Assembly: GCA_946183915.1 (NCBI GenBank)
Contig: CAMHDJ010000014.1
Location: 1-50,703 of the forward strand
DNA length: 50,703 nucleotides
Direction of reading: 5' to 3'
From: an uncultured Bacteroidales bacterium
Lineage (GTDB): Bacteria > Bacteroidota > Bacteroidia > Bacteroidales > P3
Both the position numbers and the translations under genes were made by a program. Each line of letters begins with the position of its first letter. The first letter of the stretch is position 1. Below the pieces are notes generated by a model. That model saw nothing but the letters and a program-made list of their open reading frames with translations. It searched no databases and was not told where the DNA came from. Positions 14,493-21,135 of this stretch are shown here, one piece after another.

Positions 14493-14758
14493 TTAACGCA
14501 ATTTAACTAAAAAGAGCCGTTCGGCCCCCGGAGGGGCACCGGTGTTCCATTGGTTCCCATCCGGGGGTATGCCGAGGGCCTATTGAAGACCTTTTGAAGG
14601 CCTATTACTGGATTGGCGAGACAGGAATATCTACACCCTCTTTTTCCTGAACACGAATGGCACGCATAGCACGAATAATTCGTTGGATTTGTCCGATTCG
14701 TGTTCGTTTTCATTCAACGCGAATTACCGTAAATGACCGTGAATTTCCGTTAATTATT
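14493..14758. other. Intergenic stretch with short degenerate repeats, no gene seen
   Basis: Contains repeated GGCCTATTGAAG-like pieces (about 14575-14610) and CACGAAT-type units (about 14650-14710). No open frame here has recognisable protein features. Confidence 0.5.
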
Positions 14759-14788
14759 TTGCCGGTTTAAATAATATTCGTATTTTTG
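14759..14788 (+). promoter_or_regulatory. Promoter of the structured RNA upstream of the methyltransferase
   Basis: TTG (14759-14761), 19 bp, TATTTTTG (14781-14788): exact Bacteroidota consensus. There is no ORF start for 275 bp downstream, which argues for a long leader or a separate RNA. Confidence 0.75.
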
Positions 14789-14794
14789 CACTTG

Positions 14795-14984
14795 CTTTCG
14801 AGAGCGAAAGCTGTAAGCAAGAAAAGCATTTGCTTATTCGGAGAACGTCCTTGAAGTTTGGCCACAGATAGACGATTATACGGAATAAAGCAGATGTCCA
14901 CTTATGTGGACTTCTGAATTGTCTGTATAATCGGGTTAGGCCAAACACCCAAGGACGTGGACAAGGAAGATGTCCACGTTTTTT
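14795..14984 (+). ncRNA. Structured RNA or leader of the EcoRI-type methyltransferase gene
   Basis: Four nested perfect helices follow the promoter: P1 14845-14853 with 14950-14958 (9 bp), P2 14856-14863 with 14939-14946 (8 bp), P3 14873-14881 with 14925-14933 (9 bp), and a hairpin 14896-14901 with 14906-14911 (loop TTAT). An intrinsic terminator follows at 14955-14984 and shares bases with P1. The stretch 14930-14950 can pair instead with 15055-15065 (11 bp, including the AT of the methyltransferase start) and with 14999-15008 (10 bp). No known RNA family recognised. It could act as a cis attenuator or as a short RNA controlling methyltransferase translation. A DNA element with palindromic ends is the alternative. 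Confidence 0.55.
14955..14984 (+). terminator. Intrinsic terminator in the methyltransferase leader
   Basis: Nine-base-pair stem (14955-14963 with 14971-14979), 7-nt loop, then six Ts. Its left arm overlaps the right arm of helix P1, so the two folds compete. The sequence of its right arm (GATGTCCAC) also occurs upstream at 14893-14901, which could act as an antiterminator strand. Confidence 0.75.
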
Positions 14985-15063
14985 ATGCCTCATGGGCCGG
15001 GTGTTTGGGTTAGCTGCGCGTTCTCAATATTAATAACAGAACGTACACCAACAACCTAACCCG

Positions 15064-16080
15064 ATGGTTACTCGAACATCAAGGCTGCAAGGCAGCAAAA
15101 AGAGAAGGGACGACGAATATTACACGTTGTTCCAAGACATAGCGGACGAAGTGAGCCACTATTTGCCCCAACTGCGAGGCAAGCGCATCCTGTGCCCCTG
15201 CGACTGGGACGAGAGTTACAACGAGGAGATTGTTTACAAGGAAGAAGGCTATGTGCTGGGACGTGGGCTGTTCGGTGCCGAAGGTACCATTAAGAATATT
15301 GACATCGCGGGAACTCGCGAGAAGATAGAGAAGCGGATGGATCGGGTGAAATGCCAGTTTGTCTATTATTTGCTCAATCAGGCAGAGGAATGGGGTATTA
15401 AGTCCATAAGCGTGAGCGGTTACAATCCACAGACGGGCGAGGGCGTGCGCTTTCAAGACATCGACTACAGCCATTACGATGTCATTATTACCAATCCACC
15501 GTTCAGTCAGTTCGACGAATTTGTTGACTTAATGGTCAAGAACGGCAAGGAGTTTCTCGTTATTGGTCCACAAACAGCACCTACGGAGAAGAGCATTATC
15601 CGACATTTCCAAGAAGGGAATATCCGCATCGGCTATCACTACCATCTGAGCGGCTTCAACCGCCCTGATGGCAGCACCCTGCCCAAGCAGCACAATACGC
15701 CACGTAGCTGCATGTGGTACACAAACCTACAGGTGGACGCTGACGACAGAGAACTGACGTTAATGGCCTCATATTATGATAATCCAGAAAAGTACCCGAA
15801 ATACGTGAACTATGATGCCATAGAGGTGCCAACCGTAGCTGATATACCCTACGACTATTATGGCGAGATGGGAATCCCCGTTACGTTTATGCAGAAATAC
15901 AATCCCAAACAGTTTGAGATCATCGGATCAAGCAGTCAACTAAGCAAGCCTCTAAAACCTTTAGTAGAAACAGATGCAGTATATACAGGTGGAGGACGTG
16001 GCCGTTTTTATCTTGCCGAAGGGAATAAGCACTATCGCAGATTGTGGGACAGAATGGTTATCAAACGAAGAAAGGAGTAA
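15064..16080 (+). CDS. EcoRI-family adenine-specific DNA methyltransferase
   Basis: A 338-residue N6-adenine methyltransferase of the EcoRI-methylase family. The catalytic motif NPPF is at residues 144-147 (DVIITNPPFSQFDEF), and the family-specific stretch LCPCDWDESYNEE (residues 43-55) stands in for the SAM-binding region. The length matches M.EcoRI relatives (about 320-340). The next gene, 3 bp downstream, is a DUF262-HNH nuclease, so the pair probably makes up a modification and restriction unit; no EcoRI-type endonuclease is present. Base composition is AT-richer than the flanking housekeeping genes, which suggests transfer. The region before the ATG is complementary to the upstream leader (14930-14940). 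Confidence 0.9.
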   Translation: MVTRTSRLQGSKKRRDDEYYTLFQDIADEVSHYLPQLRGKRILCPCDWDESYNEEIVYKEEGYVLGRGLFGAEGTIKNIDIAGTREKIEKRMDRVKCQFVYYLLNQAEEWGIKSISVSGYNPQTGEGVRFQDIDYSHYDVIITNPPFSQFDEFVDLMVKNGKEFLVIGPQTAPTEKSIIRHFQEGNIRIGYHYHLSGFNRPDGSTLPKQHNTPRSCMWYTNLQVDADDRELTLMASYYDNPEKYPKYVNYDAIEVPTVADIPYDYYGEMGIPVTFMQKYNPKQFEIIGSSSQLSKPLKPLVETDAVYTGGGRGRFYLAEGNKHYRRLWDRMVIKRRKE

Positions 16081-16083
16081 CAA

Positions 16084-17184
16084 ATGATGACAGTAAGAGA
16101 ACTATATGAAAAGGTTGTCAATGGTGTTATCATCAGTGACATTGAGCTACAACGGAATATTGTTTACGATGCAGACAAGCAGGCCCTGGTGATTGACAGC
16201 CTCTACAAAGGCATCCCTCTGCCAGCCTTCTACTTGTGGCAGAGAGAGGACGGAAAACTGGAGGTGCTCGACGGGAAGCAGCGCATCGAAGCCATCAAGA
16301 AATTCAAGCAGGGTAACCTACTGTATGAGGGTAAGTCATGGAAAGCCTACGCCTACGACAGTGACCTGCAGCAGGTAATTGACAATACAGAACTTACAAT
16401 CATTACTTGCAGCGGCGACGAAGAGAAGAAACGAATGATATTTAAGCGTATCAATACGCTGGGCGTTCAGCTCTCGAAGTTTGAGGTTCTTAATGGCCTG
16501 TACCATGGCGAGTACATAGAAGGGTTGAACTACTACTTTGCTAATGACGCCAATGTTAGAAATGTGTTGCCAAACGCACCTGTTGACCGTGGAGATAATA
16601 AGTATCGCCTGCTTGAATACATATACTATGTACGAAACAAGAGTGTTTTTCCCAAACGGAGCGAGTTGGACGACTATGTGCAGCAACACAAGGATGAATC
16701 ATTCAACGAGGAGGTCAAGAAGATAAAACCATATATTGGCTTTATTCGTGATGTTTTTGGCGATGCCTCCAAGATAAGCCCAGCATTGAAATTCAAGTTG
16801 GCGGTGAAATACCAGAAAGACCGAGCCATCTGGCTGCAGCACAAAGATGCAATATGCAAAGACTGCAACGCATTCATTAAAAGCGATGGATACAAGTTAT
16901 CTTCCAGCAAGGATGAGGATATTGAGGCAATGGTTCTCGGTATTGTTGGCAATCTGAGTGTTGATCCGAAGCGTTTGTTTACAGCAGATGACAAGGCAAA
17001 ATTGCTTGCAGAGTTGGAACCAGATGAGAGGGGACTATACGAATGCACAAAGTGCCACCAGCATTTTGCGGCAGACGAACTAACTATTGACCACATAAAA
17101 CCGTGGAGTAAAGGTGGACGAACTGTGTTGACGAATGCTTGCTTATTATGCAGAGCCTGTAATAGTAGCAAGGGGAATAAATGA
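16084..17184 (+). CDS. DUF262 and HNH nuclease protein
   Basis: A 366-residue protein. The N-terminal DUF262 (ParB/Srx-like, GmrSD-N) domain has the signature LDGKQR at residues 62-67 within LEVLDGKQRIEAIKKF, used for nucleotide binding or hydrolysis in relatives. The C-terminus (about 319-366) is an HNH nuclease with zinc-type pairs CTKC and CRAC around DHIKPWSKGGRT and CNSSKG. DUF262 occurs in type IV restriction (GmrSD), BrxU and SspE, all anti-phage nucleases. Here it follows an adenine methyltransferase by 3 bp, suggesting a nuclease gated by methylation state. The gene is clearly AT-rich. A role in defence is inference from family and context. Confidence 0.88.
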   Translation: MMTVRELYEKVVNGVIISDIELQRNIVYDADKQALVIDSLYKGIPLPAFYLWQREDGKLEVLDGKQRIEAIKKFKQGNLLYEGKSWKAYAYDSDLQQVIDNTELTIITCSGDEEKKRMIFKRINTLGVQLSKFEVLNGLYHGEYIEGLNYYFANDANVRNVLPNAPVDRGDNKYRLLEYIYYVRNKSVFPKRSELDDYVQQHKDESFNEEVKKIKPYIGFIRDVFGDASKISPALKFKLAVKYQKDRAIWLQHKDAICKDCNAFIKSDGYKLSSSKDEDIEAMVLGIVGNLSVDPKRLFTADDKAKLLAELEPDERGLYECTKCHQHFAADELTIDHIKPWSKGGRTVLTNACLLCRACNSSKGNK

Positions 17185-17311: not shown

Positions 17312-17527
17312 CTATAGAGCATTTTTTAGCTCTTTCTCAAGACTATCGTAAAGATAAGCTGGACTTTGAAAATAGAGGCCGGTTTTCGTATTGTTCAGCG
17401 CAGCGTAAGTCTTGGATTTGTATACAATATTCATGGCCTCACGCATCGTCATTGAACGCTCTTCCATTAGACGAGCTATCATTTCGCGCGTCAACGTCTC
17501 TATCATGAATGTTTCTTTCCCGCTCAT
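17312..17527 (-). CDS. Small third protein of the DUF3791/DUF3990 cassette
   Basis: A 71-residue protein starting at the ATG (17527) that overlaps the DUF3990 stop in ATGA. The sequence MTMREAMNIVYKSKTYAALNNTKTGLYFQSPAYLYDSLEKEL resembles small proteins regularly found beside DUF3990 genes in Bacteroidales and Firmicutes. An antitoxin or accessory role is likely by position but not proven. No known domain is named here. Convergent with the DUF262 gene, whose end is about 130 bp away; that gap holds only short AAAAGGGGAG-type repeats. Confidence 0.75.
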   Translation of the reverse strand: MSGKETFMIETLTREMIARLMEERSMTMREAMNIVYKSKTYAALNNTKTGLYFQSPAYLYDSLEKELKNAL

Positions 17528-17994
17528 GATCTTTGCAATGATTGAATAGCCATATCCGTGGCAAACATATACTGGATGGTCACGGTATGGTATTTGATTT
17601 CTTCAAGGAACTGCTCTTCTGTTATGATCCCCTCTTCTACTCGGCGTATCTGGTAGCCAATCACATCGTCGGCAATTGGTCCAATTACAATATCGTAGTT
17701 GTGAACCTGTGTTCGTGTGCGGTTCTTGCGGTTCATCAACACAAAACGAGCCCACTCCATAGTATAACTGTCAAACTGGAGTACCTTCAATGCTTGTAGT
17801 GCATTGTTGTCAATGGTGTATTCATACACACGGGCTTCGCCGACGCCATATTGTTCAAACTTGCGTTCGGCTTGTCGTTGTGCCACCTGTTTGTCGGGAG
17901 TAAGATAAAATCCGATACCAAAGTCTTTGCCGACTCGACTTTCTTTGAGGTCTATTCGCAGTATTTCTGCATTGGTTCCATGATAGAGTTTCAT
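17524..17994 (-). CDS. DUF3990 protein, ADP-ribosyltransferase-like putative toxin
   Basis: A 156-residue member of DUF3990, which belongs to the ADP-ribosyltransferase fold. Candidate active-site residues in the expected order are His5 (KLYHGT), Tyr30 (GIGFYLT) and Glu80 (MEWARFVL), an H-Y-E arrangement. Such proteins would transfer ADP-ribose from NAD to a cellular target. It overlaps the upstream DUF3791 gene and the downstream small gene by 4 bp each, the tight coupling seen in toxin-antitoxin units. Target unknown; the toxin role is inference from fold and arrangement. Confidence 0.82.
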   Translation of the reverse strand: MKLYHGTNAEILRIDLKESRVGKDFGIGFYLTPDKQVAQRQAERKFEQYGVGEARVYEYTIDNNALQALKVLQFDSYTMEWARFVLMNRKNRTRTQVHNYDIVIGPIADDVIGYQIRRVEEGIITEEQFLEEIKYHTVTIQYMFATDMAIQSLQRS

Positions 17995-18221
17995 GCAAGA
18001 GTCCCTCCCATTCGTTTGCAGTAAGCCGTTAGGTCCTCAACTGTGTTGTCAAAAGAGAATGTGTGTTCTACATCATAAAATCTATCCACGAAGTCAAGGC
18101 CTTTGTATCGCTGTAAATACTCGTATGCCTGCGACGTAGATATTTGGTGCGCCGTGGCAAACTCTGTTATAAGAGCCACAAAGTAGTTGATTTTATCAAG
18201 TGTATTCTTACTCATATTCAC
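17991..18221 (-). CDS. DUF3791 protein, putative antitoxin
   Basis: A 76-residue DUF3791 protein; FVDRFYDVEHTFSFDNTVEDL is the family signature (YDxxHT). DUF3791 genes normally precede DUF3990 genes, as here, and are thought to be the antitoxin partner. The stop overlaps the DUF3990 start (ATGA, 17991-17994). The start is the ATG at 18221, with MSKNTLDKINYF beginning two codons in; either Met could be used. First gene of the three-gene cassette. Confidence 0.8.
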   Translation of the reverse strand: MNMSKNTLDKINYFVALITEFATAHQISTSQAYEYLQRYKGLDFVDRFYDVEHTFSFDNTVEDLTAYCKRMGGTLA

Positions 18222-19778: not shown

Positions 19779-19970
19779 GATTTCAACAGTGAAATCAACG
19801 AAGCGTTGTATCTTCGTCTTGCAATTGGAAACCTGAGAAATTTTCAAGTGACGCAAGGAAATATGACGGCTTCGCGCATATTAGCGTGGGCTGTTGTCTG
19901 TTTCTCCGTCACAAGGTAATTCTCAGGACCTCCAATTGAAGAAGTGGTACACGGCACCACGCTTCTTTTT
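19779..19970 (+). ncRNA. Rod-shaped small RNA, candidate 6S RNA
   Basis: About 190 nt between a consensus promoter and a terminator hairpin (19940-19964 followed by TTTTT). It folds as one long rod: CAATTGGA (19822-19829) with 19931-19938, CCTGAGAAATT (19832-19842) with 19918-19927, GTGACG (19848-19853) with 19907-19912. A large internal loop follows, then an apical hairpin (about 19865-19898). Size, long closing stem and central bubble fit 6S RNA, which imitates an open promoter and binds RNA polymerase. I cannot confirm family membership by eye; another structured RNA is possible. Short open frames inside it are not convincing. Confidence 0.5.
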
Positions 19971-20019: not shown

Positions 20020-20418
20020 ATGTTCAAACAAATCAAAAAAGTGGCGATGCTGTTCTTTGTGGCAGCCACAATGTTCACCGCCTCGTCCTGCAGTAAGGAT
20101 GATGGGTATTCCGAAAGCGACATCATCGGTGTCTGGTATTTCCCGACGAGTGTCGGCTATGACCAGCTGCGCGGTGCGAAACTCGACATCAAGGCCGACC
20201 ACACCGTCACAATCAACGCTACCACTGGTACGATGACTTTCGATTGGACGTTCAAGGACAACCAGTTCACAGCCACCCGTACATCAGGGCAATACACTGG
20301 CGTTCTGTCATTCAACGTCAAGGAGGTTACCTCGGACTACATGACTGAGGAGGGAGACTACCGAATGAATGGTAATGTCCTCGGCAGCGTAAGTGGAACG
20401 ATGCGGCATTCTTTGTAG
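20020..20418 (+). CDS. Small lipocalin-like lipoprotein
   Basis: A 132-residue lipoprotein with lipobox TASSC (Cys24). The mature part begins IIGVWYFPTS and alternates short beta strands (LDIKADHTVTINATTGTMTFDWTFKDNQFTATRT is strand-rich), as in small lipocalin-like Bacteroidales lipoproteins that open with a GxW motif. Function unknown; probably sits at the outer membrane. Stands alone between the 6S-like RNA and a bidirectional terminator. Confidence 0.75.
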   Translation: MFKQIKKVAMLFFVAATMFTASSCSKDDGYSESDIIGVWYFPTSVGYDQLRGAKLDIKADHTVTINATTGTMTFDWTFKDNQFTATRTSGQYTGVLSFNVKEVTSDYMTEEGDYRMNGNVLGSVSGTMRHSL

Positions 20419-20502: not shown

Positions 20503-21135
20503 TTATTCTGTAGAGGTTTTATATCCTATCTTTTTGCGTGGTTGGGCAGGCTTCTCTCGCATCTCGTCAAGCGCGTCGTTGAGTGCGGCTATCTGGATGG
20601 CCACTTCCATGTTGGTGGCGCTCTGGTCATGGAGAATGTCGTCGACGCGGGCATTGAGTTGGTCAACTTTCATCGACAGTTTCTCCAATTTCATATCCGT
20701 AGCCTGCATGGCGCTCATGGCATTGCGGATAGCCACGAAGGCACGCATTATGTTGATGTTGACCTGTATGGCTATGCTTGAACGCAGAACAGAACTGAGC
20801 ATGGCAATACCGAGTTCAGTAAAGGCATAGGGCAAGGCTCTGTCTCCACCTCTGTTTGAAATCGCAATTTGCGATTTCATAGCATCGGCTTTTTTGTTTG
20901 AAATCGCAATTTGCGATTTCAAACGCGTCCACTCGTCCTTGTCAAGACGAAACATGAAGTCTTCAGGGAATCGTTCAATGTTTCGTTTTACAGCCTCGTT
21001 AAGACGACCTGTTGTAACATCATATAGTTCTGACAGGTCACGGTCAAGCATCACACGCTGGCCGCGTATCAAATAGATACGGTCCTTGATGGCCTCAATG
21101 GGAACGTTCTCTACAGGGACAATCTCTTTATCCAC
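20503..21135 (-). CDS. ORF6N domain protein
   Basis: A 210-residue protein. The ORF6N domain (about residues 10-100; IYLIRGQRVMLDRDLSELYDV, LPYAFTELGIAML) is a DNA-binding module common in phage and accessory regions. A helical, coiled-coil-prone C-terminus follows. The segment KSQIAISN occurs twice (residues about 73-80 and 86-93), encoded by two near-palindromic copies of AAATCGCAATTTGCGATTT. Its end is close to gcvT (12 bp gap from its start to the gcvT stop), so it may be transcribed from the gcvT promoter. Lower GC than gcvT suggests a later arrival. Role unknown. Confidence 0.85.
   Translation of the reverse strand: MDKEIVPVENVPIEAIKDRIYLIRGQRVMLDRDLSELYDVTTGRLNEAVKRNIERFPEDFMFRLDKDEWTRLKSQIAISNKKADAMKSQIAISNRGGDRALPYAFTELGIAMLSSVLRSSIAIQVNINIMRAFVAIRNAMSAMQATDMKLEKLSMKVDQLNARVDDILHDQSATNMEVAIQIAALNDALDEMREKPAQPRKKIGYKTSTE

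Follow-up and report, generated by a model that had tools for sequence, protein, structure and literature searches.

A candidate leader RNA with two alternative folds before restriction-modification genes of Bacteroidales

The methyltransferase locus and its leader

The window is the whole stretch of 50,703 nucleotides that was analyzed, and the locus of interest consists of a structured leader, a DNA methyltransferase (MTase) gene, and a gene for a presumed restriction endonuclease partner (Table 1). The partner, a GmrSD_N-HNH protein, follows the MTase in 35 of the 36 MTase-relative loci that were found; the 36th stretch stops inside the MTase. As judged from these sequence relatives, the MTase and the GmrSD_N-HNH protein are a widely spread two-gene system. 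A domain scan of nine proteins around the leader revealed no HTH domain. Adjoining the restriction-modification (R-M) operon, three small genes on the minus strand (17312-18221) match the PADLOC candidate system PDC-M13, among them one DUF3990 and one DUF3791. The lipoprotein gene behind a second member of the RNA family has a weak GH43_C (lipocalin-like) match, and an ORF6N gene is present at 20503-21135.

The initial annotation described the leader as a consensus promoter followed by four nested perfect helices, an intrinsic terminator that shares bases with P1, and two alternative pairing partners with a small hairpin between them. Against the Bacteroides -33/-7 promoter consensus, both elements of the promoter-like box were found. 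All four helices lie where they had been placed, but P4 is imperfect, with one T-T mismatch. The terminator and P1 have ACGT (14955-14958) in common, and the small hairpin is present with 5 bp; in relatives, its ACGTTC arm has the 5' strand of P1 as an alternative partner. Both alternative pairings exist as described, 14941-14950 with 14999-15008 over 10 bp and 14930-14940 with 15055-15065 over 11 bp. The fold of the window leader is more than chance: positions 14786-15078 reach a minimum free energy of -112.6 kcal/mol compared with -73.6 +/- 5.2 kcal/mol after shuffling (z -7.6), and none of 200 dinucleotide shuffles was as good.

Table 1. Features of the leader and of the genes around it, in positions of the window
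Feature	Position	Strand	Basis and remarks
Promoter-like box	14758..14788	+	-33 TTTG (14758-14761), -7 TATTTTTG (14781-14788), 19-bp spacer; read from sequence
5' hairpin GCTTTC..GAAAGC	14794..14811	+	Fold prediction; part of the 5' module common to another RNA class
Core structured RNA, 141 nt; fold A = P1, P2, P3, P4, terminator	14844..14984	+	R1 164 bits, R2 134 bits; covariation in relatives
P1	14845-14853/14950-14958	+	Sequence reading, consensus folds
P2	14856-14863/14939-14946	+	Sequence reading, consensus folds
5' strands of P1 and P2	14845..14863	+	Sequence, consensus folds
P3 (14873-14881/14925-14933) around P4 (14891-14901/14906-14916)	14873..14933	+	Fold, alignment
3' strands of P2 and P1	14939..14958	+	Sequence, alignment
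Intrinsic terminator, 14955-14963/14971-14979 and T-run	14955..14984	+	Sequence, fold; stem in 20/20 aligned leaders
Post-terminator segment, fold B arm	14999..15015	+	Complementary to 14934-14950, 17 positions, one mismatch
Small hairpin, CGTTC 15019-15023/GAACG 15039-15043, 5 bp	15019..15043	+	Sequence, alignment
Start-codon arm, 11 bp with 14930-14940	15055..15065	+	Ends in A and T of ATG 15064-15066
DNA adenine methyltransferase, PF13651 (EcoRI_methylase), NPPF motif	15064..16080	+	Pfam; PADLOC type II MTase
GmrSD_N (DUF262) and HNH protein, presumed restriction endonuclease partner	16084..17184	+	Pfam; PADLOC best NsnA, then type II REase (REase_II)
Second member of the leader's RNA family	19820..19967	+	R2 53.5 bits, E 6.7e-11; precedes small lipoprotein gene 20020-20418

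Spread and covariation of the RNA family

The presence of the leader at close MTase homologs was one of the checks suggested by the initial annotation, and all 22 of the loci found whose MTase is at least 76% identical (L032-L052, L064) carry it. Seventeen are full matches (147-165 bits) to R1, a model built from 20 MTase leaders. The leader of L050 is cut by the contig start (48.7 bits), that of L043 is a diverged version (R1 31.9 bits, R2 82.5 bits), and those of L032, L046, and L064 were recognized by direct comparison or alignment. The leader of L048 is that of Prevotella communis E15-14. L062, whose MTase is only 48% identical, has the leader as well (R2 89.1 bits). In a scan of the taxonomic family, R1 matches were detected in 25 of 190 genomes, comprising eight MTase leaders and weaker full-length matches. 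The second model, R2, was built from 18 sequences, namely three MTase leaders, L043, L062, and 13 loci taken from the 21 weaker R1 matches with an available locus (L076-L096). Because the eight loci left out (L079, L082, L085, L087, L090, L094-L096) precede no recognized R-M gene, R2 favors the R-M branch. Four more weak R1 matches without a locus were set aside, and three were antisense shadows of MTase leaders.

R2 matches are present in 106 of 120 genomes of the genus at E<=1e-3 (54 of the 62 good ones), in 105 of 393 genomes and 68 of 206 genera of the order at E<=1e-4, and in 16 of 296 genomes of a phylum sample, with the genome of the window included in each count. Rfam 15 gave no match over the whole window at the gathering threshold; at E<=1, 14 loci were compared, nine of them containing all or part of this RNA, and the matches listed all fell outside it. 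By these sequence comparisons, the window leader belongs to a large, apparently undescribed RNA family of the Bacteroidales.

Compensatory base changes in homologous loci, another check put forward at the outset, are present. For the 18 sequences of the model, standard pairs fill 92.3% of pair cells versus 69.3 after shuffling, and covariation is 0.618 versus 0.229 shuffled and at most 0.109 slid. The 38 loci that were found by R2 and unused in building it display 90.6% standard pairs and a covariation of 0.676, versus 0.249 shuffled and at most 0.124 slid. The alignments were made to fit the model structure, and the kinship of the loci is left in them; the slid controls speak against an artefact. 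Changes on both sides of a pair are found in the 38 loci for 6 of 7 pairs in P1, all 8 in P2, all 6 in the P3 helix, 9 of 10 in the two P4-side helices, and 4 of 7 counted terminator pairs. The number of further pair types, 98 versus 91.7 shuffled, is barely above the control (reached by 15 of 500 shuffles). Within the MTase clade itself, up to 11 of the 20 sequences differ on both sides of P3, and a single compensatory change in P2 occurs in three of them. A conserved receptor-type fold of about 130-160 nt, as expected of a riboswitch, is thus backed by covariation in the 18 and 38 loci.

Nested inverted repeats in multiple copies would also fit the reading that the sequence acts as DNA, as a palindromic or mobile element (REP/MITE-like) or a recombination site. 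Such an element would fit the truncated copy in L010 and the different leader branch before the 85%-identical MTase of L043; the strand-specific features (promoter box, terminator, fixed distance to the ATG) and the G-U-tolerant compensatory pairs stand against it and make it very improbable. In L010, positions 1501-1620 hold only the 5' half of the leader, after which the sequence turns to unrelated DNA, a pattern suggestive of deletion or recombination. The mismatch of gene and leader branch in L043 indicates that the two can re-pair or diverge separately. Phage, plasmid, or viral origin was rejected: two leaders had no match in phage and plasmid records, and the MTase and two RNA patterns had none in viral contigs.

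The range of the leader is narrower than that of the enzymes. No R2 match was found in the seven scanned (L053-L056, L058, L065, L066) of eight distant Bacteroidota loci with an MTase about 52-63% identical. Single-sequence folds place a different, putative long nested leader about 280-306 nt upstream of the MTase in these eight loci (L053-L058, L065, L066), most with P1 GCGCATAGC/GCTATGCGC, P2 GCCTCGG/CCGAGGC, and GCGTGAT repeats. The five loci with the MTase and GmrSD_N-HNH pair in Patescibacteria (L060, L061, L067), a Bacilli MAG (L063), and an unclassified MAG (L059) likewise gave no R2 match; their gene pairs are about 48-52% identical. The RNA therefore looks, from this distribution, like an addition of this lineage rather than part of the enzyme.

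The RNAs of abiF and type III toxin-antitoxin systems (AbiF, ToxIN) are tied to one protein family, which is inhibited by the RNA. The present leader is similar in being a structured RNA ahead of a defense gene, and its layout of promoter, RNA, terminator, and gene resembles that of type III toxin-antitoxin, AbiF, or retron systems, in which the RNA is a working component. That the leader is such a component is nonetheless most doubtful. Its family members precede many downstream protein families, the proteins are mutually unrelated, and the pair occurs without an R2 match in Patescibacteria and the Bacilli MAG.

A sequence search found the first 45 nt of the query again in many genomes of the same genus. 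These matches were rejected as leader relatives; they belong to another RNA class, and 21 loci scanned, L010 included, had no R2 match at E<=0.01. This second class of structured RNA (L002, L011-L031, e.g. L018 and L023 from 1501) has only these 45 nt, a promoter-proximal hairpin module, in common with the window leader, and a copy of the module is present in the window's own genome (G000:C5:14060-14104). By eye, the class has CGCCAA/TTGGCG helices and a CATGAG..CTCATG terminator, and in several loci a box GTTGCGCCCGACACGTATAAGGG lies before unrelated genes (LRR surface proteins, unknowns).

Genes behind the leaders

A same-strand ORF of at least 50 aa starts at most 260 nt after the core end in 62 of 64 loci, compared with 29 of 65 in the upstream mirror control, and the start codon has a median position 64 nt downstream of the core. 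The close co-directional ORF points to action of the RNA family in cis, as far as gene order can tell. This arrangement speaks against an independent, trans-acting small RNA gene that lies upstream by chance and has the terminator as its end, as does the better fit of the post-terminator stretch to its own RNA than to that of other loci in R-M/HTH loci (see below). Such a gene is improbable, even though it would explain the terminator and the several copies per genome (nine R2 matches at E<=0.01 in the genome of the window). Paralogous small RNAs are known in Bacteroides; according to the FopS report (PMC11697453), FopS RNAs are about 65 and 70 nt long and act in trans with a seed, not as leaders. 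Both families comprise multi-copy structured RNAs of Bacteroidales, but the core alone of the window leader, at 141 nt, exceeds the FopS lengths given there.

Upstream of the RNA, 69 of the 83 family loci have a -7-like TAnnTTTG motif on the sense strand; the opposite strand gives 25 and shuffling 6. For the stricter -33/-7 pair, the figures are 25 versus 4. Between the promoter-like box and the gene, the terminator stem is kept in all 20 MTase leaders, and 38 further loci keep it in 79.9% of cells. Eleven MTase leaders, that of the window among them, have an intact T-run; in the remaining nine it is short or interrupted, and termination may be weak there. Termination strength thus probably varies among MTase leaders, as read from their sequences.

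The initial annotation tied the leader to a restriction-type MTase. The leader does precede this MTase, but its relatives are also found before unrelated R-M types and non-R-M genes. Thirty downstream proteins, picked by eye as informative, were scanned singly, and 22 match PADLOC at E<=1e-5. In 20 of them an R-M family is the best match (five type I MTases, eight type II MTases, one type II REase, five type IIG, and one type III MTase); the two with another best match are a helicase-like protein (PLD/Snf2) and one with DUF262. The other 32 proteins were scanned as a set, in which seven match R-M families and one a candidate defense family when family tallies are taken as separate members. Pfam identifies L089 and L100 as ResIII. 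Nine of the 21 loci L076-L096 precede R-M genes, eight by PADLOC and L089 by Pfam, with the assignment of L084 and L093 based on PADLOC tallies and likeness to L083. An HTH-like protein of 69-77 aa is encoded behind six leaders (L080, L081, L114, L121, L122, L138); L138 has a Pfam HTH_3 match, L122 has no Pfam match, and the other four are HTH-like by likeness. The pattern of this protein is IGxxIRxELRxQ..WLAxQ..DFFxYYS, and L138 belongs to the genome of the window. The remaining downstream genes appear by eye to encode surface, lipo-, or unknown proteins.

As a control, the longest ORF close to each RNA on its upstream side was scanned (62 members). No R-M family is among the 25 commonest of the 127 PADLOC families matched there, and none of those 25 has more than 3 of the 62 members. 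In the reverse survey, which covered 30 loci per family, mostly one per genome among top scorers, an R2 match lies directly before 1 of 30 HsdM loci (L165, ATG 51 nt after the core), 1 of 30 m5C-MTase loci (L214, 238 nt), and 0 of 30 integrase loci; the R2 matches in L213 and L179 are not before the searched gene. A universal R-M leader was rejected on the HsdM and m5C-MTase counts. R-M genes are thus frequent clients of one branch of the RNA family, yet the majority of those sampled lack the leader.

Two folds and a proposed riboregulator

The initial annotation gave the leader mutually exclusive folds. Throughout the MTase clade, the counterpart of 14934-14950 pairs with the post-terminator stretch over 16-17 positions in all 20 leaders (one mismatch, G-U allowed), and the pairing is kept through sequence change (GTTAGC, CCTAAC, CTTGGC, CCTGAT, CCTGAC, and so on). 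The start-codon arm has 5-11 bp in the 12 leaders closest to the window, compared with only 4-7 bp in the remaining eight. Two tests extended the comparison to 75 loci (15 MTase leaders and 60 others; L125 was too short and L138-L142 were outside). In the first, the 75 nt after the core were paired with the RNA's own 3' half and with those of non-homologous loci. The 52 R-M/HTH leaders averaged -44.3 kcal/mol with their own and -32.6 kcal/mol with other RNAs (p 8.8e-10, with p-values too small by an unknown factor as the loci are partly related), the own RNA being the best of all in 19; in the 23 other leaders, p was 0.26 and the own RNA was best in four. In the second, fold B beat all 60 dinucleotide shuffles in 30 of 47 R-M/defense leaders, failing to do so in 17, in all five HTH leaders, and in 4 of 23 others. 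By eye, L092 and L103, two of the stronger "other" leaders for fold B, look like broken relatives of the L104 helicase gene. The locus-specific complementarity after the terminator in R-M/HTH leaders suggests that two folds are under selection.

The ensemble folding of read-through RNAs covered 69 loci, of which L119, L094, and L106 were dropped on distance; L085, L091, L092, L096, L103, and L136 were outside. Fold B outweighs fold A in 28 of 51 R-M/HTH leaders (7 of 15 MTase leaders and 21 of 36 others), fold A equals or exceeds fold B in 23, and fold B outweighs fold A in none of the 15 non-R-M/HTH leaders. The claim of mutually exclusive folds therefore holds beyond this locus in R-M/HTH leaders, while most other leaders are without a second fold. 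For the further suggestion that the leader would either terminate early or expose and hide the start codon, the evidence is uneven. Pairing of the start codon rises strongly in the window, from 0.40 to 0.71, but over the 51 leaders it goes up in 20 and down in 10 (p 0.024), a weak effect that makes start-codon hiding doubtful as the general function. Since P1 and the terminator overlap by 4 nt in the window and, by eye, by about 2 nt in most relatives, a clean switch between terminator and antiterminator is at best tentative. Fold B forms after the terminator, and hence may act on translation, processing, or retention of fold A, and not on termination.

The reading held to be moderately probable is an attenuator-type riboregulator with a bistable read-through state, that is, a cis leader controlling the R-M operon behind it. 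Many transcripts would fold as A, stop at the terminator, and leave a short RNA. Read-through transcripts could refold to B, in which the post-terminator stretch would take the RNA's 3' half from the 5' half; fold B would thereby dismantle fold A and, in the window, also cover the start codon. A signal favoring either fold (ligand, protein, or transcription speed) would then set the output of MTase and endonuclease. Leader-peptide attenuation was rejected, as no conserved short ORF was apparent by eye in the leaders inspected.

A fixed, unswitched leader would keep R-M expression low through constant lowering by the terminator or through stabilizing, with fold B as an RNase III-type processing site or neutral. 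This explanation is unlikely, though by some way the most serious of the rivals: nothing points to a ligand, an effect on the start codon is not general, the terminator stem is kept, and most non-R-M leaders are without fold B, but the selection for two folds suggested by the R-M/HTH leaders argues against it.

Attenuators and riboswitches with an intrinsic terminator form a general class in which a folded leader, a terminator before the gene, and an alternative pairing are combined. The window leader is like them in its conserved fold, its terminator before the gene, and its alternative pairing partners, and unlike them in that its second fold uses a post-terminator segment competing with the 5' half; it also has no Rfam match. 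Control of type II R-M at the RNA level is described in two reviews (PMC3874152, PMC12707154) for EcoRI Rna0 and Eco29kI, where an antisense transcript arises from reverse promoters, in control of the EcoRI type inside the endonuclease gene. RNA-level control is proposed here too, in contrast as a sense-strand cis leader common to many R-M types. PMC12707154 presents C proteins and MTase repressors as protein regulators of R-M timing; the need for timed expression is the same, with an RNA leader here instead of a protein. Six family leaders do precede the small HTH-like gene, though no HTH domain was found among the nine proteins around the window leader. In these same two sources (PMC12707154, PMC3874152), C proteins, MTase autorepression, and antisense RNA are the main explanations for how R-M systems stay safe on entering a new cell, and the word "riboswitch" is absent from the main text of both. 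A search of open PMC texts yielded no description of such a leader RNA. It may be among the 3161 candidate structured RNAs of human microbiomes reported in PMC8040213.

Bacteroidales may thus control DNA-defense genes by an RNA leader with two folds. A sense-strand leader common to type I, II, IIG, and III systems would add a new layer to R-M control and open R-M regulation in Bacteroidales to direct tests. The family adds a multi-copy, order-wide RNA class without an Rfam match to a group of little-known RNA biology. A bolder and rather unlikely extension is that one RNA sensor class, responding to one signal, precedes unrelated R-M systems of all main types across the Bacteroidales and switches between two global folds. 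That signal could be a metabolite or an RNA-binding protein, or could follow from infection or DNA entry, and the lineage would own a common RNA "socket" for plugging in R-M genes.

A pseudoknot joining the 5' element UUUAUUCG to the P3-P4 junction CGAAUAAG was attractive in L081 and L118 and was rejected as not significant overall; the own pairing exceeded the median of the others in 46 of 75 loci and fell below it in 19. In L111, fold B outweighs fold A, and the leader precedes a long protein with a DarT domain (Pfam) near the end of the locus sequence.
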